Assembly: GCF_003460605.1 (NCBI RefSeq)
Contig: NZ_QTVN01000012.1
Location: 1-64,000 of the forward strand
Reading direction: 5' to 3'
DNA: 64,000 nucleotides
DNA from: Ruminococcus sp. AF31-8BH
GTDB lineage: Bacteria > Bacillota > Clostridia > Lachnospirales > Lachnospiraceae
Shown: one piece after another, positions 4,125-47,404 of the stretch
Position numbering within the stretch: position 1 is the first letter of the stretch
How the letters are laid out: each line of letters begins with the position of its first letter
Translations under genes and position numbers: made by a program
The notes under the pieces: model-generated
Seen by the model: only the letters and a program-made list of their open reading frames with translations
Told to the model about the DNA's origin: nothing
The model's database searches: none

Positions 4125-5609
4125 TTACAGATAAGAGTAACCCATTAAGGATTCGTCCACTGCCTTAGCAGCTTCTCTTCCTTCGCGGATGGCCCATACG
4201 ACAAGAGACTGGCCTCTGTGCATGTCGCCGGCTGTGAAAACTCTCGGAACGCTGGTTTCGTAAGCTTCCAGCTTTGTCTCCACGTTGGTGCGAGGGGTTG
4301 TGGCTACCTTGAAGGCATCGGTGACGTATTTCTGACTTCCAAGGAATCCGGCTGCGATCAGTACCAGGTCAGCCGGGATCACTTCTTCAGTGCCCTCTAC
4401 GGGAACCATCATCATACGACCGGATTTCGGATCCTTCTCGCCTTTTAACTTCACGATCTTGGCCTGGCACACGTTTCCGTTTTTATCCTTGATAAACTCG
4501 GTGACTGTGGTCTGGTAAACGCGGGGATCGTGTCCGAATACGGCGATAGCCTCCTCCTGGCCGTAATCGGTTTTCAGAACCTTCGGCCACTCCGGCCACG
4601 GGTTGGAGGCTGCACGCTCTACTGGAGGCATTGGCATCATTTCCAGCTGGGTTACAGATTTGGCACCCAGACGGACGGAGGTTCCCACACAGTCGTTTCC
4701 GGTATCACCGCCGCCGATCACCAGCACATGCTTGCCCTTTGCATCCTCGTAAGGTGCTTTGGTAAAGTCGCTGTCCAGTAAGGTTTTGGTTACTTTTTTC
4801 AGGAAGTCTACTGCGAAATAGATTCCCTTGGCATCTCTTCCCGGTACCTTGATGTCACGGGGATTGGAGGCTCCGCAGCAAAGAATCACGCGGTCAAATT
4901 TTTTCAGAAGCTCTTCTGCCGTGATGTCAACGCCTACATTTGTATTGGTCACAAATTTCACGCCCTCTTCTTCCATCAGCTTCAGTCTTCTGTCGATGAC
5001 AGATTTCTCCAGCTTCATGTTGGGGATGCCGTAGCGAAGCAGGCCGCCGATGCGGTCGCTTCTCTCAAATACGGTGACGCTGTGGCCTCTTCGGTTCAGC
5101 TGCTGTGCGGCTGCAAGTCCGGATGGGCCGCTTCCTACTACTGCAATGGTCTTGCCTGTGCGGACAGCCGGAGGCTGTGGTTTTACCCATCCTTCTGCAT
5201 AGGCAGTTTCAATGATGGCTCGCTCGTTTTCCTTGGTGGAAACCGGGTCTCCGTTTAAGTTGCAGGTACATGCTGCCTCGCAAAGGGCAGGGCAGACACG
5301 GGAGGTAAATTCCGGGAAGCTGTGTGTTTTGTTCAGGCGAAGGAATGCCTGCTTCCAGTTTCCGGTAAATACCAGGTCGTTTGTCTCCGGTACCAGGTTG
5401 TGAAGAGGACAGCCGGAAGCCATGCCTCCGATCATCATTCCTGCCTGGCAGAAGGGAACGCCGCATGCCATGCAGCGTGCTCCCTGAAGCTTCTGTTTTT
5501 CTTTATTTAAAGGGGTACGGAACTCCTTGAAATTGGCAATTCGCACCTTAGGCGGCAGAACCTTTGCCACCTCTCTGTTATATTCTAAAAATCCAGTCGG
5601 TTTTCCCAC
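4125..5609 (-). CDS. gltD: Glutamate synthase small subunit (NADPH)
   Basis: The beta subunit of glutamate synthase oxidises NADPH and passes electrons through FAD and iron-sulfur clusters to the large subunit, which makes two glutamates from glutamine and 2-oxoglutarate. At 494 residues it is the usual length. Cluster cysteines are visible as C46, C49, C54 and C67, with a second set at C106, C110, C114 and C116. The FAD site is VVGSGPSGLAAA (158-169) and the NADPH site is VIGGGDTGND near residue 300. Translation starts at GTG 5609, preceded by AAGGAGG. It lies 14 bases after gltB and is the last gene of the pyrG-gltB-gltD operon. Cytoplasmic. Confidence 0.95.
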   Translation of the reverse strand: MGKPTGFLEYNREVAKVLPPKVRIANFKEFRTPLNKEKQKLQGARCMACGVPFCQAGMMIGGMASGCPLHNLVPETNDLVFTGNWKQAFLRLNKTHSFPEFTSRVCPALCEAACTCNLNGDPVSTKENERAIIETAYAEGWVKPQPPAVRTGKTIAVVGSGPSGLAAAQQLNRRGHSVTVFERSDRIGGLLRYGIPNMKLEKSVIDRRLKLMEEEGVKFVTNTNVGVDITAEELLKKFDRVILCCGASNPRDIKVPGRDAKGIYFAVDFLKKVTKTLLDSDFTKAPYEDAKGKHVLVIGGGDTGNDCVGTSVRLGAKSVTQLEMMPMPPVERAASNPWPEWPKVLKTDYGQEEAIAVFGHDPRVYQTTVTEFIKDKNGNVCQAKIVKLKGEKDPKSGRMMMVPVEGTEEVIPADLVLIAAGFLGSQKYVTDAFKVATTPRTNVETKLEAYETSVPRVFTAGDMHRGQSLVVWAIREGREAAKAVDESLMGYSYL

Positions 5610-5623
5610 GATCCTTCGCCTCC

Positions 5624-8600
5624 TTAATGCTTAACTCCTATGCTTTCGTAGAATGCTTCCATCTGTGCCTGTTCACTGTTCAGACCCTTTTCCTCAAGCT
5701 TTGCGCTTAAGGTGATCATCTTCTTGTACTCATTTGGAATGAGCTTTTTGAAGTGAGGCAGGTACTCGTCGAACTGATCCAGAACTTTCTTTCCAAGGGC
5801 TGAGCCTGTTGCGGCTACATGAGCTTCAATCAGATCCCGAAGCTCTTTTTCGTCATATTTATTATCCACCTTTTCAATAGAAATCATGGATTTATTCAGA
5901 TTTCTGTAAAGAACATTCTCCACATCCAGAACGTAAGCAATACCGCCGCTCATACCTGCTGCAAAGTTTTTGCCCGTTCTTCCAAGAACAACCACACGGC
6001 CGCCTGTCATATACTCACAGCCATGCTCGCCGACACCTTCTACAACTGCATTTGCACCGGAGTTACGTACTGCAAAGCGCTCGCCTGCCATACCATTGAT
6101 AAAGGCAGTTCCGCTGGTGGCTCCATAAAGGGCAACATTTCCTACAATAATGTTATCTTCTGCTTTGTAGCCTGCATTTTCCGGAGTTTTCAGAATCAGC
6201 TTACCGCCGGAAAGACCTTTTCCAAAATAATCATTGCAGTCACCGGTAAGCTTCAGGGTAAGTCCCTTGGGGATAAATGCACCAAAGCTCTGTCCGCCTG
6301 CTCCTGTGCAGTCGATTTCTACAGTGTCTTCCGGAAGTCCCTTTTTGTGGTTTCTGGTGATCTCAGCACCAAGGATGGTTCCAAATGCACGGTCTGTGTT
6401 TTTAACAGCCACAGAGAGCTGTGTTTTTTCACCATTTCGGATTGCACTGCTGCATTTTTTGAGCAGGATCCTTTCATCCAGTGTTTTTTCCAGCTCGAAG
6501 TTGTACTGTGATTTCGGGTCAAAGGTTACCATATTGCCTTCTCCTGCAAATGGATTGTTCAGGATGGCACTAAGATCAACCTTTCCCTTGTGTGGCTCGT
6601 CCACGGCATCTGTTGAAACAAGAAGATCGGTGCGTCCTACCATTTCCTTCAGGCTGCGAACACCAAGCTTTGCCATATATTCACGAAGCTCCTGTGCAAT
6701 AAAGCGCATGAAGTTTTCTACGTATTCCGGTTTGCCCTTGAAGCGTTTTCTAAGCTCCGGGTTCTGGGTGGCAACACCAACCGGGCAGGTATCCAGGTTG
6801 CACACTCTCATCATCACGCAGCCCATAGTTACAAGGGGAGCGGTTGCAAAGCCAAATTCCTCTGCACCAAGAAGTGCGGCAATGGCAACATCACGGCCGC
6901 TCATCAGCTTGCCGTCTGTCTCAATGCGGACACGGTTTCGAAGTCCGTTCATAAGAAGGGTCTGATGTGTTTCCGCAAGTCCAAGCTCCCAGGGAAGTCC
7001 TGCATTGTGGATGGAGCTTCTTGGAGCAGCTCCTGTACCTCCGTCATAGCCGGAAATCAGGATAACCTGTGCGCCGGCCTTTGCAACACCTGCTGCTACA
7101 GTGCCCACACCAGCCTCAGAAACCAGTTTTACGGAAATATCTGCATATTTGTTTGCATTTTTCAGGTCATAGATCAGCTCTGCCAGATCCTCAATGGAAT
7201 AAATGTCATGATGTGGCGGCGGGGAGATCAGGCTGACACCAGGAGTTGAATGACGGGTTTTTGCAACCCACGGGTAAACCTTCTTTGCCGGAAGGTGTCC
7301 GCCTTCACCTGGCTTTGCTCCCTGTGCCATTTTGATCTGGATTTCTTTTGCAGATACCAGATAGCGGCTGGTAACGCCAAAACGTCCGCTGGCTACCTGC
7401 TTGATGGCTGAGCATCTGTCATCCATGCTTCCTGCTGAATCCAGTCTTTCCTCACTTTCACCGCCTTCTCCTGTGTTTGATTTTCCGTGAAGATGATTCA
7501 TGGCAATGGCAAGAGTTTCATGAGCCTCCTGGGAAATAGAGCCATAGGACATAGCACCGGTCTTAAAGTGCTTTACTATCTCATCTACACTTTCCACTTC
7601 TTCGATCGGCACCGGGTTCTTTGCATATTTAAAGTCCATCAAAGCACGAAGGTTGCCGTGATTTTCCTTATCGACAAGATCGGTGTACTGCTTGAACATC
7701 TCATAGCTTCCGGTTCTTGTGGACTGCTGAAGAAGATGGATGGTTGCCGGGTTGTAACGGTGCTCCTCACCCTGGCTTCTCATTTTGTGAGCACCTACGC
7801 TGTCTAAGGTCAGGTCTGTGGTAAGTCCAAGAGGATCAAATGCCTCAGAATGAAGCTTTTCTACATTATCCTCAATATCCTCCAGTGTAATACCGCCTAC
7901 GCGGCTTACCGTTCCGGTGAAGTATTTGTCAATTACGTCCTGGGATACACCGATTGCCTCAAAAATCTGGGAGCCCTGGTAAGACTGAATCGTGGAAATA
8001 CCCATCTTGGAGGCAATTTTTACAATGCCGCTGATCACAGCGTGATTGTAGTCTTCCACTGCAGCATAGTAATCCTTGTCCAGCATATGTGTGTCAATAA
8101 GCTCATGGATAGTCTCAAGTGCCAGATAAGGGTTCACTGCACTTGCGCCATAGCCAAGAAGTGTTGCGAAGTGATGAACCTCTCTTGGCTCGCCGGATTC
8201 CAGAATAATTGCAAGGGAAGTGCTCTTTTTGTTTTTTACAAGGTGCTGATGTACTGCGGAAACAGCAAGCAGTGACGGGATTGGCATGTGGTTTTCGTCC
8301 ACTCCTCTGTCAGAAAGCACCAGAATGTTAGCACCGTCTCTGTAGGCTTTATCAACCTCCACAAACAGGCGGTCAATGGCACGCTCCAGCTTTGTGCTCT
8401 TATAATATAAGGTAGAAACTACTGCAACCTTAAAGCCCTCGTGATGCATTTCCTTAATCTTGAGCATATCCGTATTGGTAAGAATCGGGTTATTGATCTT
8501 CAGTACCTTGCAGTTCTCCGGAATCTGCTCCAGAAGGTTTCCGTCTTTTCCAACGTAAACGCTGGTGCTGGTTACGATTTCCTCACGGATGGCATCGATA

Positions 8601-10171
8601 GGCGGGTTGGTTACCTGCGCAAAAAGCTGCTTAAAGTAGTCAAAAAGTGGTCTGTTCTGTTTGGAAAATACAGCTAATGGGGTATCCACGCCCATTGCAC
8701 CAATGCTTTCTGCTCCGTTTAATGCCATATTGCGGATGGAGGTGCGGTACTGCTCGTAGGTATAGCCGAAGGCTTTCTGCAGGCGGGAGCGCTGCTCCTC
8801 GGTGTACTCTTCCATTCTTTCGTTTGGAATTTTGATATCCTTTAAATGTACCAGATTGCTGTCCAGCCATTCGCCGTATGGCTGTTTCTTTGCGTACATT
8901 TCCTTTAATTCGTTGTCATCAATAATTTTTCCCTGAAGGGTATCTACCAGAAGCATTTTGCCTGGGTGAAGACGCTCTTTGAGAATGATCTTCTCTTCCG
9001 GTACCGGCAGAACGCCTACCTCAGAGGAAAGGATCATGCAGCCATCTGAGGTTACATAGTATCTGGATGGACGAAGACCGTTTCGGTCAAGAACTGCACC
9101 CATCACATCTCCATCTGAAAAGAGAATAGATGCCGGTCCATCCCATGGCTCCATCATGGTTGCATAGTACTGATAGAAGTCACGCTTTTCCTGGGAAATA
9201 GTATCGTTATTTGCCCATGGCTCCGGGATGGTGATCATCACTGCAAGGGGAAGCTCCATGCCGCTCATGGTAAGGAATTCCAGGGTGTTGTCAAGCATTG
9301 CAGAGTCGGAACCGTTTCGGTTGACAACCGGAAGGATCTTCTGCATTTCGCCCTCCAGGTACGGGGACTCCATATTTTCCTCTCTTGCCAGCATTTTGTC
9401 TGCGTTTCCGCGGATGGTGTTGATCTCACCGTTGTGAACAATGAGACGGTTAGGATGTGCTCTCTCCCAGCTTGGGTTTGTGTTGGTGCTGAAACGGGAA
9501 TGCACAAGGGCAATGGCGGATTCATAATCCGGGCTCTGAAGATCAGAGAAAAATGTGCGAAGCTGGCCTACCAGGAACATTCCTTTGTAGACGATGGTTC
9601 GGCTGCTCATGGAACATACGTAGGTATTGTCGTTGCTCTGCTCGAACTCCCGGCGGGCAATGTACAGCTTGCGGTCAAATGCAAGACCTTTTTCCAGATC
9701 ATCTGGCTTTTTGATAAATGCCTGCATGATGCATGGCATGCACTCTCTTGCCTTATGTCCAAGAACCTCCGGGACTACCGGGACTTCTCTCCAGCCAAGG
9801 AATTCCAGACCTTCCTTTTCCACGATGATCTCGAACATTTTTTTCGCCTGGGCACGTTTGATCTCGTGCTGCGGGAAAAAGAACTGGCCAATACCGTATT
9901 CCCTTTCCTGACCGATCTCAATTCCTTCTTTTTTGCAGGCTTTTTTGAAAAATCTGTGTGAGATCTGAAGAAGGATACCTACACCGTCACCGGTTTTGCC
10001 TTCGGCATCCTTTCCGGCACGGTGCTCCAGATTCTCTACAATACGAAGAGCATTTGCCACTGTATCATGAGATTTTTTACCTTTGATGTTTACAACTGCA
10101 CCGATACCGCAGTTGTCATGCTCAAATTCCTGGCGGTAAAGTCCCTGCCTTTCCTTTATCACTTCTCTCAT
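5624..10171 (-). CDS. gltB: Glutamate synthase large subunit
   Basis: The alpha subunit has an N-terminal class II amidotransferase domain whose nucleophile is the cysteine in HDNCGIGA (C21 from the chosen start, exposed after propeptide removal), a central domain, the FMN synthase domain, and a C-terminal beta-helix domain with GGQSFGAF. The 3Fe-4S cysteines are seen in CVMMRVCNLDTCPVG near residue 1115. About 1515 residues is normal. I prefer the ATG at 10171 over the one at 10180 because GGATGAGG then has proper spacing. It follows pyrG by about 14 bases from that start, so the glutamine-consuming enzymes are co-transcribed and share the pyrG leader attenuator. Confidence 0.95.
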   Translation of the reverse strand: MREVIKERQGLYRQEFEHDNCGIGAVVNIKGKKSHDTVANALRIVENLEHRAGKDAEGKTGDGVGILLQISHRFFKKACKKEGIEIGQEREYGIGQFFFPQHEIKRAQAKKMFEIIVEKEGLEFLGWREVPVVPEVLGHKARECMPCIMQAFIKKPDDLEKGLAFDRKLYIARREFEQSNDNTYVCSMSSRTIVYKGMFLVGQLRTFFSDLQSPDYESAIALVHSRFSTNTNPSWERAHPNRLIVHNGEINTIRGNADKMLAREENMESPYLEGEMQKILPVVNRNGSDSAMLDNTLEFLTMSGMELPLAVMITIPEPWANNDTISQEKRDFYQYYATMMEPWDGPASILFSDGDVMGAVLDRNGLRPSRYYVTSDGCMILSSEVGVLPVPEEKIILKERLHPGKMLLVDTLQGKIIDDNELKEMYAKKQPYGEWLDSNLVHLKDIKIPNERMEEYTEEQRSRLQKAFGYTYEQYRTSIRNMALNGAESIGAMGVDTPLAVFSKQNRPLFDYFKQLFAQVTNPPIDAIREEIVTSTSVYVGKDGNLLEQIPENCKVLKINNPILTNTDMLKIKEMHHEGFKVAVVSTLYYKSTKLERAIDRLFVEVDKAYRDGANILVLSDRGVDENHMPIPSLLAVSAVHQHLVKNKKSTSLAIILESGEPREVHHFATLLGYGASAVNPYLALETIHELIDTHMLDKDYYAAVEDYNHAVISGIVKIASKMGISTIQSYQGSQIFEAIGVSQDVIDKYFTGTVSRVGGITLEDIEDNVEKLHSEAFDPLGLTTDLTLDSVGAHKMRSQGEEHRYNPATIHLLQQSTRTGSYEMFKQYTDLVDKENHGNLRALMDFKYAKNPVPIEEVESVDEIVKHFKTGAMSYGSISQEAHETLAIAMNHLHGKSNTGEGGESEERLDSAGSMDDRCSAIKQVASGRFGVTSRYLVSAKEIQIKMAQGAKPGEGGHLPAKKVYPWVAKTRHSTPGVSLISPPPHHDIYSIEDLAELIYDLKNANKYADISVKLVSEAGVGTVAAGVAKAGAQVILISGYDGGTGAAPRSSIHNAGLPWELGLAETHQTLLMNGLRNRVRIETDGKLMSGRDVAIAALLGAEEFGFATAPLVTMGCVMMRVCNLDTCPVGVATQNPELRKRFKGKPEYVENFMRFIAQELREYMAKLGVRSLKEMVGRTDLLVSTDAVDEPHKGKVDLSAILNNPFAGEGNMVTFDPKSQYNFELEKTLDERILLKKCSSAIRNGEKTQLSVAVKNTDRAFGTILGAEITRNHKKGLPEDTVEIDCTGAGGQSFGAFIPKGLTLKLTGDCNDYFGKGLSGGKLILKTPENAGYKAEDNIIVGNVALYGATSGTAFINGMAGERFAVRNSGANAVVEGVGEHGCEYMTGGRVVVLGRTGKNFAAGMSGGIAYVLDVENVLYRNLNKSMISIEKVDNKYDEKELRDLIEAHVAATGSALGKKVLDQFDEYLPHFKKLIPNEYKKMITLSAKLEEKGLNSEQAQMEAFYESIGVKH

Positions 10172-10185
10172 TTTCCTCATCCTTT

Positions 10186-11817
10186 CTATTGTTGATTCAG
10201 AGTTTCCTCTTTTTGCTTTCTTCGGTTAGCTGCTGCCTTAACAAATCCGCGGAACAAAGGATGTGCATGATTTGGTCTTGACTTAAATTCCGGATGTCCC
10301 TGGGTTCCGACAAAGAACGGATTCTCCGGAATCTCGATCATTTCCACAATATGACCATCCGGGGAGGTTCCGGCAATGGTCATGCCTTTGGCTGCAAGCT
10401 CCTCGCGGTATGCGTTGTTGACTTCGTACCGGTGTCTGTGGCGCTCCTGGATTTCTTTCTTTCCAAAGAGTTCTAATGATAAAGAGCCGTCCTGAAGGAC
10501 ACATGGGTAACTGCCAAGACGGAGGGTTCCGCCAAGGTCTTCTACTTTCTCCTGGTCTGGCATCAGGGCGATGACCGGATGTGTAGTTTCCGGGGCAAGC
10601 TCGATGCTGTTTGCATCTTCATAGCCAAGGACGTGGCGGGCAAATTCTACGATTGCCATCTGCATTCCCAGGCAGATTCCAAGGTATGGGATCTTGTGGA
10701 CACGGGCGTACTGTGCGGCCAGGATCATGCCTTCGGTTCCTCTTCCGCCGAAGCCGCCTGGTACCAGGATTCCGTCTACGCTGTAAAGTCTCTGGTCCAG
10801 GTTTTTCTCATTGAGTTCTTCGGAATCAATCCAGGTGATCTCTACTTTTGCCTTGCATGCGATTCCGCCGTGCTTCAGGGCTTCTACGACGCTTAAGTAG
10901 GCATCGTGGAGCTGAGTGTATTTTCCTACCATTGCAATGTTTACGGTTTTGTCCGGGTGGCGGAGATTTTCTACCATTTCTTCCCAGTCGGTAAGGTCTG
11001 GTTTGCGCTTCTCAAGTCCAAGGGACTGCATGACCACGTCTGCCAGTTTTTCACGTTCCATGGCAAGTGGTGCTTCATATAAATATTCTACGTCCAGGTT
11101 CTGGAGTACGTGGGATACGGGTACGTTGCAGAACAGGGCGATTTTGGCACGAAGGTCGTCGGTGAGGGGATATTCGCTTCTGCATACCAGCACATCCGGC
11201 TGGATTCCCATTCCCTGAAGCTCTTTTACACTGGCCTGGGTGGGCTTGGTTTTCATTTCACCGGAAGCCTTCAGGTATGGAATCAGGGTTACATGAATAA
11301 GGATGGCATTTTCGTGTCCTACGTCATGCTGGAACTGTCTGATGGATTCCAGGAACGGCTGGCTTTCAATGTCTCCTACTGTTCCGCCTACCTCAATGAT
11401 GGCAATTCGGTCTTCATCCGGGGATTTGGCACGGTAGAAACGGCCTTTGATCTCATTTGTGATGTGGGGAATGACCTGTACGGTTCCTCCCCCGAAGTCT
11501 CCGTGGCGTTCCTTCTGAAGAACGGACCAGTAAATTTTTCCGGTGGTCACGTTGGAATTTTTATCCAGGCTTTCATCAATAAAGCGCTCATAGTGACCAA
11601 GATCCAGGTCGGTCTCGGTTCCGTCGTCGGTTACGAAGACTTCGCCGTGCTGGATGGGGTTCATGGTTCCGGGGTCGATGTTGATGTAGGGGTCAAATTT
11701 CTGCATGGTTACCTGGAAGCCTCTGGCTTTTAGAAGCCTTCCTAATGATGCTGCTGTGATTCCTTTTCCCAGTCCTGACACAACACCGCCAGTGACAAAT
11801 ACGTATTTTACTGCCAT
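10186..11817 (-). CDS. pyrG: CTP synthase
   Basis: Converts UTP to CTP with ATP and glutamine. The N-terminal synthetase domain starts [19 protein letters not shown], the P-loop-like signature; the C-terminal class I glutaminase domain has the nucleophile in GICLGMQ and the His-Glu pair in GHPEF. Length 543 residues is standard. The ATG at 11817 is chosen over an in-frame upstream codon since GGAGGAGG lies just before it and the family begins there. It is the first gene of an operon with gltB and gltD, an unusual pairing that groups glutamine-using enzymes. Expression is probably set by the leader terminator at 11873-11934. Confidence 0.95.
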
Positions 11818-11872
11818 CTTTCGATTTCCTCCTCCTGATTTCCGGGCTTCCTTATGGATGGCCCGAATACAC

Positions 11873-11961
11873 AAAAAGGCACCAAAGAGGGATTTCAGGG
11901 GGCACTTGACCTGTTTATCCTCTTTGACGCCTTTGTCAAAACAAATTCTTATTCAAAAATA
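11873..11961 (-). promoter_or_regulatory. pyrG-gltBD leader: AAAGGC hexaloop antiterminator hairpin overlapping a terminator
   Basis: The leader RNA can fold a short hairpin, TTTGAC-AAAGGC-GTCAAA (11940 down to 11923), with a six-base loop carrying A at position 1 and G at position 4. The loop and 3' arm are also the 5' arm of a 16-bp terminator whose other arm, CCTCTTTGGTGCCTTT, is followed by a T-run (11877-11873). The two folds exclude each other. Hexaloops with A1 and G4 are the known target of ANTAR-domain antiterminators (EutV, NasR). The glnA and amtB leaders in this window share the same loop. The binding protein is not in the window. No 5' GGG tract of the Bacillus pyrG type is seen at the predicted start. 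Confidence 0.65.
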
Positions 11962-11967
11962 TGCTAT

Positions 11968-11996
11968 ATAATATATCATATTTGGGGATTTGTCAA
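11968..11996 (-). promoter_or_regulatory. pyrG promoter
   Basis: TTGACA (11996-11991), 17-base spacer, TATTAT (11973-11968); start expected near 11961, about 20 bases before the hexaloop hairpin. Confidence 0.75.
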
Positions 11997-11998
11997 TG

Positions 11999-13309
11999 TT
12001 ATTTTTCACAATCTGAGCTTCTCATAATTGTGATCAGTGAACTAAGCAGAAGCAGCATGGGGTAAAACAGCTTCGGCATAATCTGAAATGCAGAAATCTC
12101 ACCGCCCAGTTCATTTACTGCCGAGACTGCAACCAGCATCTGTGCACCATAGGGAATCACTCCCTGGAAAACACAGGAAAAGGTATCCAGAATGGAAGCT
12201 GTCTTTTTCGGCGTAATTCCGTATTCCTCTGCCATCTCCTTTGCAATAGGATTTGCCATCACGATTGCCACGGTATTATTGGCAGTTGCAATATCCATAG
12301 TTCCCACCAGAAGTCCGATTCCAAGCTGACCGCCTTTTTTCTCACGGAAAATTTTATGTATCCAGCTAAGAAGTGCATCAAATCCGCCATATTCACGAAT
12401 CAATGCGCACATAGCAGCCACCAGGATCGCTACCATACAGGTCTCGAACATTCCCGAGACACCGGAGCCCATGTTTTTCAGAATCTCTACAGGTGTGGTA
12501 TTTCCTCCGATCAGCATGATAACTGCACCGGATGCAATTCCTGTCAGCAATACTACAAACACATTGATTCCAACAATTCCTCCGATCAGAACCAGCACAT
12601 AAGGTATTATCTGCATCAAATGATAGGGCTGGCTCACATGTCCCTGAATTTTTGTCTGGAATGACAAAAACAGGATCAGGACCAATGTAGCTATTGCTGC
12701 CGGAAAAGCAATCCAGAAGTTCTCCCGGAATTTGTCCTTCATCTCGCAGCCTTGTCCGTTACAGGCAGCAATGGTGGTGTCTGAAATAAAAGAAAGATTA
12801 TCCCCAAACATAGCTCCGCCCATAACAGATGCCACGCAAAATGCCAGATTAAATCCGGATGCATTGGAAACTGCTGCTGCGATTGGGATCAGAAGGGTAA
12901 TCGTTCCTACTGAAGTCCCCATTGCCACAGATACAAAGCAGGCAACAACAAACAAAACAGCCACTGAAAACCTGGCCGGTATGAGACTTAGCATACAATA
13001 TGCAACACTCTCTGCGCTGCTTCTTCCCACAACTCCTACAAAGGAGCCTGCTGTAAGAAAAATCAGAAGCATAGTGATAATATTTTTGTCTCCCACACCC
13101 TGTGCCATGATCTCCAGCTTCCTGTCAAAATTCAATGCTCTGTTTTGCAAACAGGCTACCAAGATCGCTGCAAGAAATGCGATTACAATGGGTACATTAT
13201 AAAATCCCATGGGAATATCCATCACATACTCAAACAAGATGCCAAGTCCAAGATATAATACGAGAAATACACCGATTGGAAGCAAGGCAATTCCTTTTTC
13301 TTTTCTCAT
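11999..13309 (-). CDS. Na+/H+ antiporter, NhaC family
   Basis: A 436-residue integral membrane protein with about eleven hydrophobic segments. Features typical of the NhaC/ArsB-type superfamily are visible: MGTSVGTITLLIPIA and GGAMFGDNLSFISDTT in the middle (the polar GD-N--SD-T stretch is the likely ion site), and IATANNTVAIVMANPIA in the second half. It probably exports Na+ (or an organic cation/amino acid in the family) in exchange for protons at the cytoplasmic membrane. It stands alone between the HPr-like gene and pyrG. Substrate cannot be read from sequence. A fragment of the dispersed MITE lies in its 5' leader. Confidence 0.8.
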   Translation of the reverse strand: MRKEKGIALLPIGVFLVLYLGLGILFEYVMDIPMGFYNVPIVIAFLAAILVACLQNRALNFDRKLEIMAQGVGDKNIITMLLIFLTAGSFVGVVGRSSAESVAYCMLSLIPARFSVAVLFVVACFVSVAMGTSVGTITLLIPIAAAVSNASGFNLAFCVASVMGGAMFGDNLSFISDTTIAACNGQGCEMKDKFRENFWIAFPAAIATLVLILFLSFQTKIQGHVSQPYHLMQIIPYVLVLIGGIVGINVFVVLLTGIASGAVIMLIGGNTTPVEILKNMGSGVSGMFETCMVAILVAAMCALIREYGGFDALLSWIHKIFREKKGGQLGIGLLVGTMDIATANNTVAIVMANPIAKEMAEEYGITPKKTASILDTFSCVFQGVIPYGAQMLVAVSAVNELGGEISAFQIMPKLFYPMLLLLSSLITIMRSSDCEK

Positions 13310-13331
13310 CTTTTCCTCTTTCCACCATACC

Positions 13332-13348
13332 AGAGCATGTTTGAAAAA
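13332..13348 (+). repeat. MITE terminal fragment
   Basis: AGAGCATGTTTGAAAAA differs by one base from the 17-base end of the 162-bp MITE found complete at 31891 and 40149. Only the tip remains, in the nhaC leader. Confidence 0.5.
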
Positions 13349-13440
13349 GACTCTGATCTGGTTATATAATCACCTTGCTATTCTATCATACACTTGGGTT
13401 CTCTACCATAAATAATTCAGCATTTCCTGTGAAAAATAAA

Positions 13441-13506
13441 AAAAACAGACACCGCCGATTCCATGCTGTCTCGTATTTCAAGTCAATTCGGCAATATCTG
13501 TTTTTT
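13441..13506 (-). terminator. Terminator after the HPr-like gene
   Basis: AAAAACAGA pairs with TCTGTTTTTT across an inner GCCGA/TCGGC stem; T-runs on both sides allow termination from either direction, so it may also serve the region beyond nhaC's promoter. Confidence 0.55.
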
Positions 13507-13571
13507 GCAATTTTAGTGGGACACCAAGCAGGTGCCAGTCTGACAGCTGCTGCAAAGCCATTCAAGCGGAC

Positions 13572-13802
13572 TTAAGCAACTGCAAACTTCTGTAATGTAC
13601 GATTAAATTCCTTGCTCTCTCCATGGCACTGCACAGTAAGCACCCGTGTCAGGTCCATACTCAGAACTCCCAGAATGGATTTTGCATCAATGATAATTCT
13701 GTTATAGAATACATCTATGTCAAAATCGCATTTCCCTGCTGCCTTGACGAACTCCTGAACCTCTTCCGTCGCATTCAGCTTAATTTGCTTCTGACACATC
13801 AT
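13572..13802 (-). CDS. HPr-like protein without the catalytic histidine
   Basis: A 76-residue protein that aligns with HPr, the PTS phosphocarrier, over its second half: DIDVFYNRIIIDAKSILGVLSM corresponds to the HPr region with the regulatory serine, here S42. The N-terminal GIHARPA loop with the phosphorylated histidine is gone and replaced by NATEEVQEF, so it cannot carry phosphate from enzyme I. As with Bacillus Crh, a serine-phosphorylated form could still serve as a CcpA cofactor or kinase substrate. It has its own promoter and terminator and sits between purF and nhaC. HPr kinase is not in the window. Function inferred only from the fold. Confidence 0.7.
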   Translation of the reverse strand: MMCQKQIKLNATEEVQEFVKAAGKCDFDIDVFYNRIIIDAKSILGVLSMDLTRVLTVQCHGESKEFNRTLQKFAVA

Positions 13803-13851
13803 TATTCACCCTTTCTGTTTTACAGGAATGTTTTTTCCTTGATTGAGGCAG

Positions 13852-13880
13852 ATTATGCACCCATTTTCGATTTTTGTCAA
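13852..13880 (-). promoter_or_regulatory. Promoter of the HPr-like gene
   Basis: TTGACA (13880-13875), 17-base spacer, CATAAT (13857-13852), about 50 bases before the start codon. Confidence 0.7.
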
Positions 13881-14025
13881 GTTCTTTCTTGTACATTGTT
13901 TTTTTCCACATTTCAGCAGTATTTTATGTATGTTGCACAATTTTTCGCATTATTTTTTGGCTATTATTCACCATTTCATTGTTGGGTTCATTCTGTAACC
14001 AATATTACAAAAGCCATTTTTCATC

Positions 14026-15450
14026 TTAAATTTTATGAATTTCAAAATCATTTTGTAAATTATTCTCATTGGGAATTTCCATGGGATAATTGCCATCAAA
14101 GCATGCCTTGCAAATAGGAAGTCCTCCTGCCATGCCCTCCAGATACTCTATTTCCATATAGCCAAGAGAGTCTGCGCCGATCATTTTGCAGATTTCCTCT
14201 GTGGAGTGTTGTGCCGCAATCAGCTGGTCATTGCTTGGCACATCTGTTCCGAAATAGCAGGGGTGCAAAAATGGCGGAGAACTGATTCTTACATGAACTT
14301 CAAGGGCGCCTGCCTCTTTAAGCATACGGATCAGGTTGGCAATGGTGGTTCCCCGGACAATAGAATCATCTACAAGGACAATTCGTTTGCCTTTTACTGC
14401 TGCTTCCAGAACACTTAGCTTCAGATGAACGCTGGATTCTCTTTCTTTTTGGGTAGGCTTGATAAAGGTTCTTCCAATATAGGAATTCTTATAGAATGCA
14501 AATCCGAAAGGTATTCCGGATTCCTCTGAAAATCCCTTTGCGGCAGGAATTCCGGATTCCGGTACTCCGGTGACAAGATCTGCCTCTACAGGGTAAGATT
14601 TGGCAAGGGATTTTCCTCCTCGGATACGGGCATCATAAACGCTGACCTTATCAAGAGTACTATCCAGTCTTGCAAAATAGATATATTCAAATACGCAGTG
14701 GGCGCGGGTTTTCACCAAATTGGCCAGTGTCAGATCAGACTTGATCCCCTCATGGCTGATGGTAATCATTTCCCCCGGCAAAATGTCGCGGATAAACTCA
14801 GCACCAACGGAAGTCAGGGCACAGCTTTCAGATGCCAGGACATAAGCATTATCTCTTTTTCCAAGGCAAAGAGGTTTCAGGCCATAGGGGTCACGGACGC
14901 CGATCAGCTTGCGGGGACTCATGATCACCAGACCGTATGCACCCTGAAGCTTTTTGGCTGTATTTAGTACAGCATCCTCTACGCAGCTGGTATGCACACG
15001 TTCCCTTGCAACATGGAATGCGATGACCTCTGAATCTGTTGTTGTATGAAAAACTGCTCCGCTCTGAATCAGTTCCCATTTCAGAGCCTTGGTGTTCACA
15101 AGATTGCCATTATGCGCAAGTGCCAGACTGCCTTTTACATAAGACAAAACAAGAGGCTGGGCATTTTCAGCAACAGACGCTCCGGTTGTAGAATAGCGCA
15201 CATGTCCGATTCCAATGTCCCCACTCATTTTATGAAGAGTTTCCTCGCGAAGTACTTCACTGACCAGACCCAGATCCTTGTGAAATTTTACATTTCCAAT
15301 AGGACCTTTGGTATCGGATACTGCAAGTCCGCAGGCCTCCTGTCCACGATGCTGCAAAGATGTAAGACCATAATAAATAGATGCTGTCACATCATTTCCA
15401 TCCAGATCGTAGATTCCAAAGACGCCGCATTCTTCTTTAATTTCTGCCAT
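14026..15450 (-). CDS. purF: Amidophosphoribosyltransferase
   Basis: First committed step of purine synthesis: PRPP plus glutamine gives 5-phosphoribosylamine. The class II amidotransferase nucleophile is C8 in KEECGVFGIY, freed by processing of a short propeptide; the PRPP loop is VLVDDSIVRGTT. The start at 15450 follows AAGGAGG; upstream in-frame codons lack a ribosome site. 474 residues is standard for the Bacillus-type enzyme, which also binds a 4Fe-4S cluster. It is a single-gene unit, divergent from glnA, so a glutamine consumer and the glutamine maker share one intergenic region. No purine riboswitch is seen. Confidence 0.95.
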   Translation of the reverse strand: MAEIKEECGVFGIYDLDGNDVTASIYYGLTSLQHRGQEACGLAVSDTKGPIGNVKFHKDLGLVSEVLREETLHKMSGDIGIGHVRYSTTGASVAENAQPLVLSYVKGSLALAHNGNLVNTKALKWELIQSGAVFHTTTDSEVIAFHVARERVHTSCVEDAVLNTAKKLQGAYGLVIMSPRKLIGVRDPYGLKPLCLGKRDNAYVLASESCALTSVGAEFIRDILPGEMITISHEGIKSDLTLANLVKTRAHCVFEYIYFARLDSTLDKVSVYDARIRGGKSLAKSYPVEADLVTGVPESGIPAAKGFSEESGIPFGFAFYKNSYIGRTFIKPTQKERESSVHLKLSVLEAAVKGKRIVLVDDSIVRGTTIANLIRMLKEAGALEVHVRISSPPFLHPCYFGTDVPSNDQLIAAQHSTEEICKMIGADSLGYMEIEYLEGMAGGLPICKACFDGNYPMEIPNENNLQNDFEIHKI

Positions 15451-15495
15451 TTGTCTTCCTCCTTGGTGCTGATTTATGTTATAGAAACAAAAAAA

Positions 15496-15523
15496 ATTAT
15501 AATTAAAGAAGCTCATTTGTCAA
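15496..15523 (-). promoter_or_regulatory. purF promoter
   Basis: TTGACA (15523-15518), 16-base spacer, TATAAT (15501-15496); start roughly 40 bases before the purF ATG, leaving a leader too short for a riboswitch. Confidence 0.75.
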
Positions 15524-15601
15524 GTGCGCTTTTTTCATTTTTATCAAGAATTTTTTTCAGGCTTTTGCAAAAATATTTTGGAATTTTTTTCAAAAAATAT
15601 A

Positions 15602-15629
15602 TTGACAAGTCCGTTTTTTTGAGTATACT
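15602..15629 (+). promoter_or_regulatory. glnA promoter
   Basis: TTGACA (15602-15607), 16-base spacer, TATACT (15624-15629). Transcription would begin near 15636, only a few bases before the antiterminator hairpin. Confidence 0.75.
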
Positions 15630-15635
15630 ACATGA

Positions 15636-15691
15636 CATAAAGCAAAGGCGCTTTAGATTTTACAGAAATGTAAATCTAAGGCGCCTTTTTT
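15636..15691 (+). promoter_or_regulatory. glnA leader: AAAGGC hexaloop hairpin overlapping a terminator
   Basis: TAAAGC-AAAGGC-GCTTTA (15638-15655) forms a six-base-pair hairpin with an A1/G4 hexaloop. The alternative fold is an 18-bp terminator running from AAGGCGC (15645) to GCGCCTT, then TTTTTT (15686-15691). Forming one destroys the other. This is the architecture of ANTAR antitermination targets and it recurs before amtB and pyrG. A second hexaloop hairpin, usual in known ANTAR sites, was not found; the apical AGAAAT loop lacks G at position 4. Confidence 0.7.
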
Positions 15692-15697
15692 GTTATA

Positions 15698-15882
15698 AAA
15701 GTCCCGGACAGCGGCTATGCCGAAATGCAAGCTGGCTTGGATTTCGGCATAGACATTGGACGGGCTAACCCACATGAGCATGCAGACCGGCAGGTCGGAA
15801 TGCGAATGCGGGTGGGAATTGCGGGAGCGCCAGGGCGCGGAGCAATTCACTTTTATAATAATGTCTGCATCAGCAGACATTT
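15698..15882 (+). repeat. Dispersed repeat family B, complete copy
   Basis: Begins AAAGTCCCGGACAGC, contains a 17-bp hairpin around GCCGAAATGCAAGC (about 15717-15752) and a GGGAATTGCGGGAGC segment, and ends in AATGTCTGC/GCAGACATT (15860-15882). Related copies lie at 18031-18218, 40103-40420 and 60352-60402. It fills the space between the glnA terminator and glnA and will be part of the glnA mRNA. Confidence 0.65.
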
Positions 15883-15926
15883 CCTTATGAAGAAAGAAAA
15901 TGAAGAGTGAAAGGAGCGTATCTGTT

Positions 15927-18026
15927 ATGACACAGAATATTCCCGAAATTTATGGAAGTCTTGTTTTCAACGACAGGATCATGCGCAGTAAATTACCAAA
16001 GGACATGTACAAGGCACTGAAAAAAACCATTGAAAATGGTACTCACTTAGAGCTTGATGTTGCAAACTCTGTAGCAGTTGCCATGAAAGAATGGGCCATC
16101 GAAAATGGTGCTACCCATTATACACACTGGTTCCAGCCTATGACAAACGTGACTGCTGAGAAACATGACAGCTTCATTTCCCCAACAGGTGATGGACAGG
16201 TCATCATGGATTTCTCCGGTAAAGAGCTTGTAAAGGGTGAGCCGGATGCTTCCAGCTTCCCGTCCGGTGGTCTTCGTGCTACCTTTGAGGCAAGAGGCTA
16301 TACAGCATGGGATCCTACTTCCCCGGCATTTATTAAGGATGGAACCCTTTACATTCCCACAGCGTTCTGCTCTTACAGCGGTGAGGCACTTGACAAAAAG
16401 ACTCCTCTCCTTCGCTCTATGGATACCTTAAATAAAGCAGCTGTGAATATGCTTCACATCCTCGGAAATAAAGGAATCAAGCATGTTTCCACAACTGTAG
16501 GACCTGAGCAGGAATACTTCCTGGTTCCAAAGGAGCTTTATAAAGAAAGAAAAGACCTGGTGTTCTGCGGACGTACCTTACTTGGTGCTCCAGCTCCGAA
16601 AGGACAGGAAATGGAGGATCATTACTTCGGAACCTTGAAGCCGAAGGTTGCAGCTTATATGCATGATCTTGATGTTGAGCTGTGGAAGCTTGGTATTCCG
16701 GCAAAAACAAAACACAACGAGGTTGCTCCTGCACAGCATGAGCTTGCTCCTGTATTCGATACCACAAATGTTGCAGTTGACCACAATCAGCTGACCATGG
16801 AGGTTATGAAAAAGGTTGCTGACAAGCATGATCTTGTTTGCCTCCTTCATGAGAAACCATTTGAGGGAATCAACGGAAGCGGTAAGCACAACAACTGGTC
16901 CATGATCACAGATGACGGCGTAAACCTTCTGGATCCGGGAAAAACTCCTGCAGAGAATATCCAGTTCCTTGTTTTTCTGATGGCGGTTATCAAAGCGGTT
17001 GATGAATATGCGGATCTGCTTCGTATTTCCGTTGCAAGCGCAGGAAACGACCACAGACTTGGAGCAAACGAGGCTCCGCCTGCAGTTGTATCTATTTTCC
17101 TTGGAGATGAGCTGACAGAGGTTCTCAAATCCATTGAAAACGATACCTACTTTACTTCCCACGGTGCTGTTCAGATGGATATCGGTGCAACGGTTCTGCC
17201 TCATTTCGTAAAAGACAACACAGACCGTAACCGTACTTCACCATTTGCATTTACCGGAAACAAATTCGAATTCCGTATGCTGGGTTCCGCAGCTTCTGTT
17301 GCAAACCCGAATATCGTATTAAATACTGCAGTTGCAGAGGCACTGGATCAGTTTGCAAAGGAGCTTGCAGATGTAGCTCCGGAGGATATGGAGCATGCAG
17401 TTCATGAGCTGATCAAGAGAGCCATCAAAAAGCATAAACGTGTCATCTTCAACGGCAACGGCTATACAGATGAGTGGATTGAAGAGGCAGCAAAACGTGG
17501 CCTTTACAACCTGAAATCAACTCCGGATGCTATGCCTATGTGGATTGCCGATAAAAACATCGAACTGTTTACCAAGCACAGCATTTTCACAAGCGAGGAG
17601 ATTCATTCCCGTTATGATATCTGGCTTGAGAACTATTCCAAGACCATCAACATTGAGTCCAACACAATGGTTGAGATGGTGCAGAAGGATCTCCTTCCGT
17701 CTGTTCTGTCTTATGTGGAGGAAATTGCAAGCACAGCAAGCCTGAAGGCTTCTGTTGTTCCTGGTATTTCCTGCAAAAGCGAGACAACACTTATTACCAA
17801 GCTGTCTGAGCTTTCCGATGCTATGACAAAGGGACTTGAGAAACTGAAAGTAGATACAGCCAAAGCAAAAGCGACTGAGGATGTGCTTGAGAATGCCAAA
17901 CTGTATCAGACTGAGGTTCTTGAGGATATGGAGGAGCTTAGAAGGTCTGCCGATGAGGCTGAGACTCTTATTCCGGATGATCTGCTTCCATATCCTACTT
18001 ATGGAAAACTGTTATTCTATATCTAA
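15927..18026 (+). CDS. glnA: Glutamine synthetase type III
   Basis: Makes glutamine from glutamate, ammonia and ATP. At 699 residues it has the length of the GlnN (type III) class, well above the 440-470 of types I/II. Family motifs are present: GPEQEYFLV, KHNEVAPAQHE and NGSGKHNNWS, which supply metal, glutamate and ATP contacts. The ATG at 15927 follows AAAGGAG; an upstream in-frame start at 15900 has none. The enzyme is a cytoplasmic dodecamer in this class. It is followed by amtB-PII, and both leaders carry the same antitermination element, so ammonium import and assimilation should respond together. It lies some 235 bases after its terminator, with repeat B between. Confidence 0.95.
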   Translation: MTQNIPEIYGSLVFNDRIMRSKLPKDMYKALKKTIENGTHLELDVANSVAVAMKEWAIENGATHYTHWFQPMTNVTAEKHDSFISPTGDGQVIMDFSGKELVKGEPDASSFPSGGLRATFEARGYTAWDPTSPAFIKDGTLYIPTAFCSYSGEALDKKTPLLRSMDTLNKAAVNMLHILGNKGIKHVSTTVGPEQEYFLVPKELYKERKDLVFCGRTLLGAPAPKGQEMEDHYFGTLKPKVAAYMHDLDVELWKLGIPAKTKHNEVAPAQHELAPVFDTTNVAVDHNQLTMEVMKKVADKHDLVCLLHEKPFEGINGSGKHNNWSMITDDGVNLLDPGKTPAENIQFLVFLMAVIKAVDEYADLLRISVASAGNDHRLGANEAPPAVVSIFLGDELTEVLKSIENDTYFTSHGAVQMDIGATVLPHFVKDNTDRNRTSPFAFTGNKFEFRMLGSAASVANPNIVLNTAVAEALDQFAKELADVAPEDMEHAVHELIKRAIKKHKRVIFNGNGYTDEWIEEAAKRGLYNLKSTPDAMPMWIADKNIELFTKHSIFTSEEIHSRYDIWLENYSKTINIESNTMVEMVQKDLLPSVLSYVEEIASTASLKASVVPGISCKSETTLITKLSELSDAMTKGLEKLKVDTAKAKATEDVLENAKLYQTEVLEDMEELRRSADEAETLIPDDLLPYPTYGKLLFYI

Positions 18027-18030
18027 TGGA

Positions 18031-18218
18031 AATGTCGCTTTACAGCGACATCTTCATGAACGAAAGTCAGCTGTTCCGCGCTTACAGCGCTCCCACAGCT
18101 GTCGAAGGTATTCGTAATCCGGGCTATCGCCCTTCTTACTCATACCTTCTTGCCCGTCTAATATCTGTGAACTCGCTCATGCAAGCATGGCTCATTCACA
18201 GCTGCTATCCGGGACTTT
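18031..18218 (-). repeat. Dispersed repeat family B copy
   Basis: Read on the minus strand it starts AAAGTCCCGGATAGC, passes GCTTGCATGAGCGA, GGCGATAGCCCGGATTACGA and CAGCTGTGGGAGCGC, and ends AGATGTCGC/GCGACATT. The middle matches the copy at 40313-40420 closely. It begins 5 bases after the glnA stop. Confidence 0.65.
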
Positions 18219-18230
18219 CTAGGGTAGAAC

Positions 18231-18314
18231 CAGGGGATATCTATTATGAAACTCTACTTCATAATTCATTATCGATTTCCTCATCCATTAATCACACGAT
18301 ACAGATATCCCCTG
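18231..18314. repeat. 12-bp inverted repeat between glnA and amtB
   Basis: CAGGGGATATCT (18231-18242) is repeated perfectly in inverse at 18303-18314, with a 60-base loop. Only a weak TGTTTTAC follows, so it may be a poor glnA terminator or a further mobile-repeat end. Confidence 0.45.
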
Positions 18315-18343
18315 TTTTACATACATACAAAAAAATATAAAAG

Positions 18344-18394
18344 GATCGTAAAGGCGCGAAAGTAAAACAAATGTTTTCTCTTTTGCGCCTTTTT
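18344..18394 (+). promoter_or_regulatory. amtB leader: AAAGGC hexaloop hairpin overlapping a terminator
   Basis: TCGT-AAAGGC-GCGA (18346-18359) is a short hairpin with the A1/G4 hexaloop. Bases AAAGGCGC also pair with GCGCCTTT (18385-18392) in a terminator with a T-run. A weak TATAAA just upstream (18336-18341) would start the RNA close to the hairpin, as in glnA. The upstream -35 is poor, so the promoter position is uncertain. Confidence 0.65.
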
Positions 18395-18458: not shown

Positions 18459-20189
18459 ATGGATTATTCAGCAGTAAACACAATCTGGGTGCTTGTTGGC
18501 GCCGCGCTTGTCTTCTTCATGCAGGCAGGCTTCGCAATGGTGGAAACCGGTTTCACCAGAGCAAAAAACGCAGGTAACATTATCATGAAAAACCTGATGG
18601 ACTTCTGTATCGGTACTCCGGCATTCTGGCTGGTTGGTTTCGGTATTATGTTTGGAGCAGGAAACGGCTTCTTCGGAAGAATCGGCGGAATTGCCACCGA
18701 GGCAAATTACGGAAGCACAATGCTTCCTGACGGTGTTCCGTTCTGGGCATTTTTGATTTTCCAGACTGTCTTCTGTGCAACCTCTGCTACTATCGTTTCC
18801 GGTGCCATGGCTGAGCGTACAAAATTCTCTTCTTACTGTGTATACAGTCTTATGATCAGCCTTGTGGTTTACCCGATCTCCGGTCACTGGATCTGGGGCG
18901 GCGGCTTCATCAGCCAGATGGGCTTCCACGATTTCGCCGGTTCCTGTGCAGTTCATATGGTAGGCGGTGTTGCCGCATTTATCGGTGCAGTTATCCTTGG
19001 ACCTCGTATCGGTAAATATTCAAAGGATGGAAAATCAAAAGCTATCCCGGGCCATAACCTGACAGTTGGTGCACTTGGCGTATTTATCCTCTGGTTCTGC
19101 TGGTTCGGCTTTAACGGTGCCTCCACAGTTTCCATGGAGAGAGATGCAATTGTCAGTGCAGGTAAAATCTTTGTAACTACGAACCTTGCTGCTGCAGTTG
19201 CCACTGTAACCGTTATGCTGATCACATGGATCCGCTACAAAAAGCCAGATGTTTCCATGTCCCTGAACGGTTCTCTTGCAGGTCTTGTTGCAATCACCGC
19301 AGGCTGCGACACCGTATCTCCTACATCTGCAGCAATCATCGGTATTGCAGCTGGTTTCGTTGTTGTATTTGGTATTGAATTTATTGACAAGGTTCTCAAG
19401 GTTGATGATCCTGTTGGTGCAGTTGGCGTTCATGGTTTAAACGGTGCTTTTGGTACACTTGCAGTTGGTCTTTTCTCAGACGGAGCCGGTACAGAATGGA
19501 AAGGTCTTTTGGTTGGCGGCGGTTTCCACGGCTTTGGCGTACAGCTTGCAGGCATGCTGATCACAATCGCATGGGTTGCAGTAACTATGACCATTATTTT
19601 CCAGGTAATCAAGCATACTATGGGACTTCGTGTATCTGCTGAAGAAGAGATTCAGGGTCTTGATGTAAAAGAGCATGGTCTTGCAAGTGCTTACGATGGA
19701 TTCGCAATCCGGGATGCAGTTGGTTCCGTTCCGACTCCTATGGGAACTTCCAGAGAATTTACTACGGTTGCCAGACCTTCTGCTCCTGCTGAGTTCGTTC
19801 CGGAGCTTCCAAAGGACGGTGTTCACAAACTGACAAAGGTTGTGATCATTACCCGTCAGAACAAGCTTGAGGAGTTTATGCAGGCCATGAATGAAATCGG
19901 TGTTACCGGTATTACCATCACAAACGTTCTCGGATGCGGCGTACAGAAAGGTGCTCCTGCTTTCTACCGTGGCGTTGAGATGGATATGAACCTTCTTCCA
20001 AAGGTTAAGATTGAAATCGTAGTCAGCCTTGTTCCGGTACAGAAAGTCATCGAGACAGCCAAGAGAGTTCTTCATACCGGTCAGATCGGTGATGGAAAAG
20101 TCTTCGTCTATGACATTGAAAACGTTGTCAAGATCAGAACCGGCGAGGAAGGATACCTGGCACTGCAGGATACTGACGCAGAAGCCTGA
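18459..20189 (+). CDS. amtB: Ammonium channel fused to a PII signalling domain
   Basis: A 576-residue fusion. Residues 1-430 form an Amt/Mep channel with about eleven membrane helices ([13 protein letters not shown] near the start; [15 protein letters not shown] in the second half), which conducts ammonium. After a linker rich in EEE and DVKEHG, residues 455-576 are a GlnB/GlnK-type PII domain starting [12 protein letters not shown]. Its T-loop keeps the tyrosine (Y503 in AFYRGVEM) and [10 protein letters not shown] follows. PII normally plugs Amt when 2-oxoglutarate is low; covalent fusion makes the gate intrinsic. The ATG at 18459 follows GGAGG. It is next to glnA and shares its leader type. 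Confidence 0.93.
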
Positions 20190-47110: not shown

Positions 47111-47140
47111 GATAGTTCCTCCAAGGTTGTAATATTTTGA

Positions 47141-47307
47141 GATATCAAGGTCAAAAGGTCAAAAAGCTGTTCGTACTTGCACGATAAAGCTTTTGAACTT
47201 AGGGCCTGCAGGACATGAGGAAGTAGCGATTTACGTAGTAAATCTCCGGATTCCGAATGTCCTGGAATTGCGGGAGCTGCAAAGCAGCGGAGCAATTCGT
47301 AGATATC
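47141..47307. repeat. Dispersed repeat family C
   Basis: Bounded by GATATC at both ends and full of small hairpins: GATTTACGTAGTAAATC, GGACAT/ATGTCC, GCTGCAAAGCAGC, with GGAGCAATTCGTAGATATC at the right. The same end and the GCAATTC hairpin occur at 55511-55630, and parts of it inside family B at 15698. It fills most of the 341-base gap upstream of the esterase; no convincing promoter was seen there. Confidence 0.6.
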
Positions 47308-47404
47308 AAAGTCAGGGGGGCAAAATACATTTTAGCTCTAATCTCCTTGTAATATTATATAAAAAACCTGCGTAAAAAACAAGAATTCTTCTGTTTTTTT
47401 GCAT

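Follow-up and report, generated by a model that had tools for sequence, protein, structure and literature searches.

How does a bacterium such as Ruminococcus sp. AF31-8BH coordinate the genes that import ammonium, make glutamine and use it? In a 64,000-nt stretch of its genome (contig NZ_QTVN01000012.1, positions 1 to 64,000; hereafter the window, to which all coordinates refer), pyrG-gltB-gltD, a glutamine synthetase gene (glnN) and an ammonium transporter gene fused to a PII domain (amt) each have a leader in which a short RNA hairpin with the hexaloop AAAGGC overlaps an intrinsic terminator. This arrangement raises the question of whether one RNA-binding regulator governs all three operons, and whether a single hairpin is a sufficient target for it. 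A preliminary description had proposed that one ANTAR-domain antiterminator coordinates the three. We put the probability at about 75% that the three leaders belong to a single-hexaloop regulon, shared by Blautia and other Clostridia, in which an ANTAR protein controls antitermination. The proposal of one coordinating regulator gains support from loops with A at position 1 and G at position 4 (A1/G4), from the terminator overlap, from covariation, and from the occurrence of ANTAR genes across the genus, beside glnA and together with the element; the regulon itself proved wider than three operons.

A hexaloop hairpin and a terminator are mutually exclusive in three leaders

All three hairpins lie where the preliminary description had placed them; loop and 3′ arm double as the 5′ arm of the terminator in every case. 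Upstream of pyrG, on the reverse strand, UUUGAC-AAAGGC-GUCAAA occupies 11923–11940 (loop 11929–11934; predicted folding energy −4.9 kcal/mol) and the terminator 11875–11934 (−25.6 kcal/mol with the element). On the forward strand, UAAAGC-AAAGGC-GCUUUA lies at 15638–15655 in the glnN leader (loop 15644–15649; −4.2 kcal/mol), overlapping a terminator at 15644–15688 (−26.2 kcal/mol with the element), and UCGU-AAAGGC-GCGA lies at 18346–18359 in the amt leader (loop 18350–18355, closed by a U·G pair; −2.5 kcal/mol), overlapping a terminator at 18350–18392 (−21.6 kcal/mol with the element). The hairpin, which stands where the second hairpin (P2) of known ANTAR targets stands, and the terminator are mutually exclusive in all three. 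No shuffle equalled any of the three terminators (200 shuffles each); for the hairpins alone, 2 (pyrG), 22 (glnN) and 32 (amt) of 200 shuffles folded as well.

The search model R1 gave 34.4, 51 and 32.3 bits for the pyrG, glnN and amt elements, scores that, like their E-values, are not independent because these elements belong to its training set. The glnN and amt elements satisfy the strict pattern AAAGGCG-N15-45-GCGCCTTT, which matched the window four times (both strands counted) and was absent from 100 shuffles. The bare heptamer AAAGGCG is not striking there, with 15 occurrences against 8.3 expected and 5 of 100 shuffles reaching 15. No Rfam family matched the element at its gathering score; the best match below threshold, sought for the glnN element only, was a miRNA family (E 1.3 × 10⁻⁴, 31.7 versus 78 bits), which we took as chance.

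The hairpin covaries and its loop follows a rule

The glnN product has 80 relatives at 61–82% identity, the Blautia schinkii counterpart being 81% identical, and on this basis we regard the source genome as Blautia-like. Eighty glnN loci were fetched, 79 of them with upstream sequence, and terminators were located with a finder blind to the loop (counts are by T-run, and the elements of L012 and L021 are counted twice among the 47 below). Sixty terminators were found in glnN leaders. On the 5′ arm of 48 of them stood a mini-hairpin with a hexaloop, which was A1/G4 in 47. The same loci contain 1,063 other terminators, 245 of which have such a hexaloop, and here A1/G4 was seen in 69 (28%), many of them preceding other nitrogen genes. 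The loop in relatives is mostly AANGRN.

The preliminary description had taken the differing stems of the window as compensatory evidence. Three cases are weak in this respect, and it was the alignment of 47 hairpins that bore the claim out. These were picked for A1, A2, G4 and a stem of at least 4 bp, so that percentages for loop and pairing hold by construction; the covariation does not. Four of five hairpin pairs vary on both sides, and the covariation score of 0.668 compares with 0.291 ± 0.027 in shuffled alignments (0 of 500 as high) and at most 0.198 with slid partners. In the terminator stem, 9 of 14 pairs vary on both sides (0 of 500 shuffles). A second alignment and R1 use 39 of the 47, omitting L046, both elements of L071 and the second copies of L039, L044, L050, L068 and L076. 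The loop-closing pair is C-G in 41 of 42 distinct rows.

Part of this loop conservation is expected from the terminator, because A1, A2 and A3 pair with its U-tract and G4, G5 and C6 form its GC base. The leaders might thus be plain or otherwise regulated terminators, in which the A-rich loop and GGC are the usual A-tract and GC base and the 5′ hairpin just shields the mRNA end; a hairpin at the 5′ end can indeed stabilise an mRNA. We think this very unlikely. The 5′ arm of the hairpin lies outside the terminator and yet covaries, and its last base, directly preceding the loop, is C in 46 of 47 sequences. In the terminator, G4 pairs with C in 23 of 39 rows and with U in 16, with no A replacing G (in rows picked with G4), and because a U partner is so frequent G4 is apparently conserved beyond the terminator's need. 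The low share of A1/G4 on other terminators, and the co-occurrence of the element with ANTAR genes, likewise tell against it.

ANTAR genes occur with the element and beside glnA

The regulator was sought in relatives, and the ANTAR domain (PF03861) was found in 16 of 16 glnN-bearing relatives, in 29 of 31 genomes of the genus (one match each) and in 148 of 299 genomes of the phylum. R1 matched at E ≤ 0.01 in 57 of 148 ANTAR-positive versus 10 of 151 ANTAR-negative genomes (Fisher p 1.4 × 10⁻¹¹), and at E ≤ 10⁻⁴ in 22 of 148 versus none of 151, kinship being ignored in both comparisons. These searches scored 150 or 20 first-look candidates per genome, so that copies were missed.

The neighbourhood of the ANTAR gene is constant in relatives. 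In all 20 loci read it lies directly downstream of a glnA of about 400–440 aa (Pfam was checked for one; second ANTAR genes in L097 and L098 were left out of this reading), which from its size we take to be type I. Of 22 ANTAR frames found in 21 phylum genomes with strong R1 matches, 15 adjoin a glutamine synthetase gene, on either side or strand. The ANTAR gene thus sits inside a glutamine synthetase/glutamate synthase (GS/GOGAT)-type cluster in relatives, as in the NitR system.

Another RNA-binding regulator might bind the element, its link to ANTAR being a coincidence of lineage. Such an explanation could draw on the kinship that confounds the phylum-wide co-occurrence, and on the ten ANTAR-negative genomes with an R1 match (best E 2.6 × 10⁻⁴). 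We give it very little credence, since the loop rule, the terminator overlap and the residues that contact G4 are those of ANTAR proteins. Moreover, the finder returned no A1/G4 element from the glnN leaders of five genomes in which no ANTAR domain was detected (L027, L029, L035, L047, L073), and in some species the glnA-ANTAR operon itself bears the element.

One hairpin or two

If ANTAR proteins bind these leaders, they could do so as they bind classical dual-hexaloop targets, with a first hairpin (P1) that is cryptic here because its stem is weak, its loop is of another size or the transcript starts at a promoter further upstream. We consider this unlikely, and the position of the promoter is a main reason. 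Upstream of the pyrG element a sigma-A-like promoter is predicted at 11968–11996 on the reverse strand (−35 TTGACA at 11996–11991, −10 TATTAT at 11973–11968), leaving 27 nt between −10 box and hairpin; upstream of the glnN element one is predicted at 15602–15629 on the forward strand (TTGACA at 15602–15607, 16 nt, TATACT at 15624–15629), and the hairpin begins 8 nt past its −10 box. Among 82 of 105 elements (those in leaders with stems of at least 5 bp, and those of the window), 62 had a sigma-A-like promoter directly 5′ of the element, compared with 4 of 78 control stretches. The median distance from −10 box to hairpin is 10 nt, and the RNA would therefore start a few nucleotides before the hairpin; with the promoter so close, no P1 fits upstream in most leaders. 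P1-like A1/G4 hairpins within 45 nt upstream were no commoner than chance (2 of 82, with 3.2 expected). Likewise, 14 of the 18 pyrG leaders with the element have no P1-like hairpin within 60 nt, and the other four have only A-T stems of 3–4 bp. In nine leaders, two complete hairpin-terminator units stand in tandem.

A number of observations weigh against a single-hexaloop regulon, and several of them favour a hidden P1. EutV targets are described as consisting of two tandem hexaloops, P1 and P2, both needed in vivo, with a linker of 5–12 nt in eut leaders, where 14 nt already fails (PMC3369931; PMC8934654). For NasR, whose affinity for the pair is about 1 μM, binding to one hairpin alone is weaker by about 12-fold. 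Given these two precedents, one hairpin may be too little, although EutV is described as binding each isolated hexaloop roughly as well as the pair. In a second set of 52 elements, partly overlapping the 82 (the same genomes stand behind L118, L129 and L160) and scanned over 60 nt, P1-like hairpins occurred in seven, with 3.1 expected. The most evident cases stand upstream of amt in two genomes (L158, L159), where the hairpins are dual, and their recovery indicates that the finder detects P1 where it is present.

It is at amt that two hairpins are most plausible. Seven of 18 amt leaders contain the motif GAT[ACNGRT]ATC, a 3-bp hairpin, 24–70 nt upstream of the element, and the rest lack it; its loop is A1/G4 in all seven despite variable positions 3 and 5. 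The copy in the window (GAT-ACAGAT-ATC, 18298–18309, forward strand) lies 36 nt 5′ of the amt hairpin, its function being uncertain, and the consensus scan found no promoter near that hairpin. Because of these two features, some species may have a dual target at amt, even though linkers of 24–70 nt far exceed those of eut. The surrounding stretch, 18230–18320 (around CGATTTCCTCATCCATTAATCACACGATAC..ATATCCCCTGTTTTACATA), recurs in several species at variable spacing from the hairpin, and the attenuator does not explain it.

The remaining observations that count against the proposed regulon concern distribution. By our thresholds the element stands directly before glnN in 38 of 79 loci; in some of the others it precedes an asnA or pyrG that lies ahead of glnN. 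Three ANTAR-bearing genomes (L055, L063, L078) lack it in the glnN leader, 91 of the 148 ANTAR-positive genomes of the phylum have no R1 match, and the ten ANTAR-negative genomes named above do. In homologous leaders that keep the terminator the loop is kept in most, and it is changed in a few: AAAAGC in two amt leaders, GAAGGC in one pyrG leader and AAGAGC in one glnN leader. The glnN leader of L029, in whose genome no ANTAR domain was detected, has GAAGGT by eye. Finally, the window yielded no ANTAR gene, its lone tblastn match being a wrong-strand frame over purF.

The regulator and its possible input

The predicted structure of the regulator consists of a receiver and an ANTAR domain (pLDDT 87, pTM 0.62). 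Its top PDB match in Foldseek is RNA-bound EutV (TM 0.73), with AmiR at rank 14. In VIA-align, receiver domains rank above EutV because they match residues 1–129; AmiR is not among the 50 matches listed, which excludes nothing. EutV residues Lys149, Glu160 and Met172 are conserved in 17 of 17 glnA-linked regulators; the position of Tyr164 is taken by Y, F or H, and conservation is mostly absent at Arg142, Lys143 and Lys147. The linker before the ANTAR domain holds 10–11 Lys/Arg in six proteins from Blautia genomes and 6–9 in the other eleven; we suggest tentatively that this basic linker may help a single hairpin to suffice.

The receiver domain has lost its phosphorylation site. In the 17 glnA-linked regulators the phospho-Asp column holds G, A, S, T or N and the acidic pair is lost; the Asp is also missing, by eye, in three more regulators and in all 60 aligned homologues (50 G, 10 S), which are 60 of the 120 listed among 2,772. 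Input from a histidine kinase was rejected for the glnA-linked regulators on this ground, and no EutW-like kinase is expected. Among the ANTAR frames of 21 other genomes of the phylum, 11 of 22 keep the Asp (by eye).

The receiver of the glnA-linked regulator is thus not phosphorylatable in the usual way, and its input is probably a protein-protein contact. Glutamine synthetase of Bacillus subtilis is described as controlling TnrA through direct contact (PMC6316151). Together with the constant glnA neighbourhood, this makes GlnA our best guess for the sensor; the adjacency in 20 of 20 loci is circumstantial as to a sequestering partner. A fuller proposal, which we offer tentatively and regard as doubtful, would be that one hexaloop at the 5′ end is enough, and that an ANTAR pseudo-receiver protein with a Lys/Arg-rich linker is switched by the neighbouring GlnA, whose feedback state, with no kinase involved, would set the transcription of glutamine-making and many glutamine-using enzymes across a large part of the gut Clostridia.

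A model for antitermination

What we infer about binding, read-through, signal direction and sensor can be put as follows. By default, the nascent leader RNA would fold into the terminator, whose −22 to −26 kcal/mol beats the −2.5 to −5 kcal/mol of the hairpin, and transcription would halt before the gene. Under nitrogen shortage (a direction taken from NitR), a small regulator that combines a receiver-like with an ANTAR domain, and whose gene adjoins glnA in relatives, would become active, its input being a protein-protein contact in the fashion of AmiC-AmiR. It would then grip the hexaloop at A1, A2 and G4 above the closing C-G pair. The short hairpin, so held, would deny the terminator its 5′ arm and allow read-through. 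In most leaders the target would be one hexaloop, whose predicted position is no more than a few nucleotides from the start of transcription.

Extent of the regulon

Across all loci we counted 142 non-redundant elements. Glutamine synthetase genes follow 61 of them, a share inflated because most loci were fetched through glnN; 31 precede class-II amidotransferase genes (purF, gltB, the GOGAT amidotransferase subunit and asnB, counted as one group), and 21 amt or PII genes. The rest comprise six before pyrG, five before asnA, two before nifH, 13 single cases (including carA and a tRNA-synthetase gene beside gatCAB-like genes) and three with no reading frame behind them. Genes lacking a cited Pfam or NCBIfam match were named by reading the N-terminal sequence. 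The element is present in 18 of 28 pyrG loci of the genus set. Of 16 orthologous amt leaders, 12 have an A1/G4 loop by pattern and 11 have it with a terminator.

Elsewhere in the phylum, the listed R1 matches stand mainly before the same nitrogen genes; some have no evident nitrogen link (e.g. L133, L141, L142, L173) and may be ordinary terminators. In L118, L121 and L122 the element precedes glnA-ANTAR itself, an arrangement that suggests feedback.

Some loci stand apart. L165 and L169, from two genomes of the phylum, have the element ahead of a gene read by eye as nifH-like; in these genomes the element would then be linked to nitrogen fixation. L071, on a contig labelled Treponema, has two element-like hairpins before glnN (7814–7970) and one ANTAR match in its genome, reflecting either lateral transfer or a mislabelled assembly. 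L036 and L048, on contigs labelled Alistipes, have glnN loci 64–65% identical to that of the window, and here too mislabelling is possible; in L048 the element precedes amt and gltB.

Genes of the window and other features

On the reverse strand, the first gene after the element is pyrG, encoding CTP synthase (10186–11820; PF06418 and PF00117), followed by gltB for the large subunit of glutamate synthase (5624–10180; PF00310, PF04898, PF01645, PF01493) and, after it, gltD for the small subunit (4125–5609; PF14691 and PF07992). The gene that the preliminary description called glnA does encode a glutamine synthetase (15900–18026, forward strand, start by eye at 15928; NCBIfam glutamine synthetase models match below their cut-off), and at 708 aa its product is presumably type III, hence glnN, a class assigned from size. 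The amt gene (18462–20189, forward strand) matches TIGR00836 with 428.7 bits, and PII models match at residues 482–587 of its product.

Three copies of Clostridiales-1 RNA (RF01699; 112–117 bits) lie at 15693–15858 (forward), 18061–18220 (reverse) and 47140–47308 (forward). The first two flank glnN, one in its leader just 3′ of the attenuator and one just past the stop codon. A drum RNA (RF02958, 98 bits) lies at 2516–2629 on the forward strand, close to phage terminase genes at 947–2357.

Comparison with known systems

ANTAR control of nitrogen genes, including those of clostridial GS/GOGAT, is already known or predicted. A possible antiterminator of this kind was noted in Clostridium thermocellum, whose GS-GOGAT cluster holds an ANTAR gene, and the NitR study of Clostridium saccharobutylicum is reportedly that of Stutz et al. 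(2007). As an overview describes it, NitR is an ANTAR regulator of GS/GOGAT genes, acts by antitermination and is induced at nitrogen limitation (PMC6316151), in all of which it resembles the system proposed here. The passage on NitR in that overview omits the RNA element, the single hairpin, the pyrG, purF, asnA, asnB and amt branches and the lost phospho-Asp, any of which the original paper may cover. The ANTAR regulons predicted in Desulfotomaculum and Pelobacter likewise comprise several nitrogen operons per genome, with genes for PII, the ammonium transporter and glutamate and glutamine synthases; they are reported to have been predicted with a dual-hairpin model (PMC3369931), which in our estimation would probably miss a single-hairpin class.

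The likeness to EutV and NasR that the preliminary description had drawn holds for the A1/G4 loop and the terminator overlap, and fails for the first hairpin, mostly missing here (uncertainly so at amt), and for the receiver. As the accounts at hand describe EutV-EutW of Enterococcus faecalis, its targets share with our elements the A1/G4 hexaloop, a P2 that overlaps the terminator, conserved closing pairs and ANTAR contacts to G4; unlike them, they combine P1 with P2, and EutV is phosphorylated at Asp54 by EutW (PMC3369931; PMC8934654). AmiC-AmiR of Pseudomonas aeruginosa, to judge from similar accounts, also joins a pseudo-receiver to an ANTAR domain and is controlled without phosphorylation, whereas the conserved adjacent gene here is glnA and not that of an amide-binding protein (PMC7496416; PMC8934654).

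By title and abstract, no description of a single-hairpin class was found in the open-licence literature. As far as could be seen, the single-hexaloop, promoter-proximal design with a pseudo-receiver regulator is a new variant, and the element looks simpler than the known two-hairpin version. These leaders form a large natural collection of candidate attenuators with one hexaloop, and their shortness suits them to simple transcription assays in vitro. The proposed system is also a concrete candidate for how Blautia and related gut bacteria control nitrogen centrally, with GlnA as a testable sensor candidate. Should GlnA prove to be the switch, this ANTAR system would be the RNA-level counterpart of the GS-TnrA system of Bacillus.

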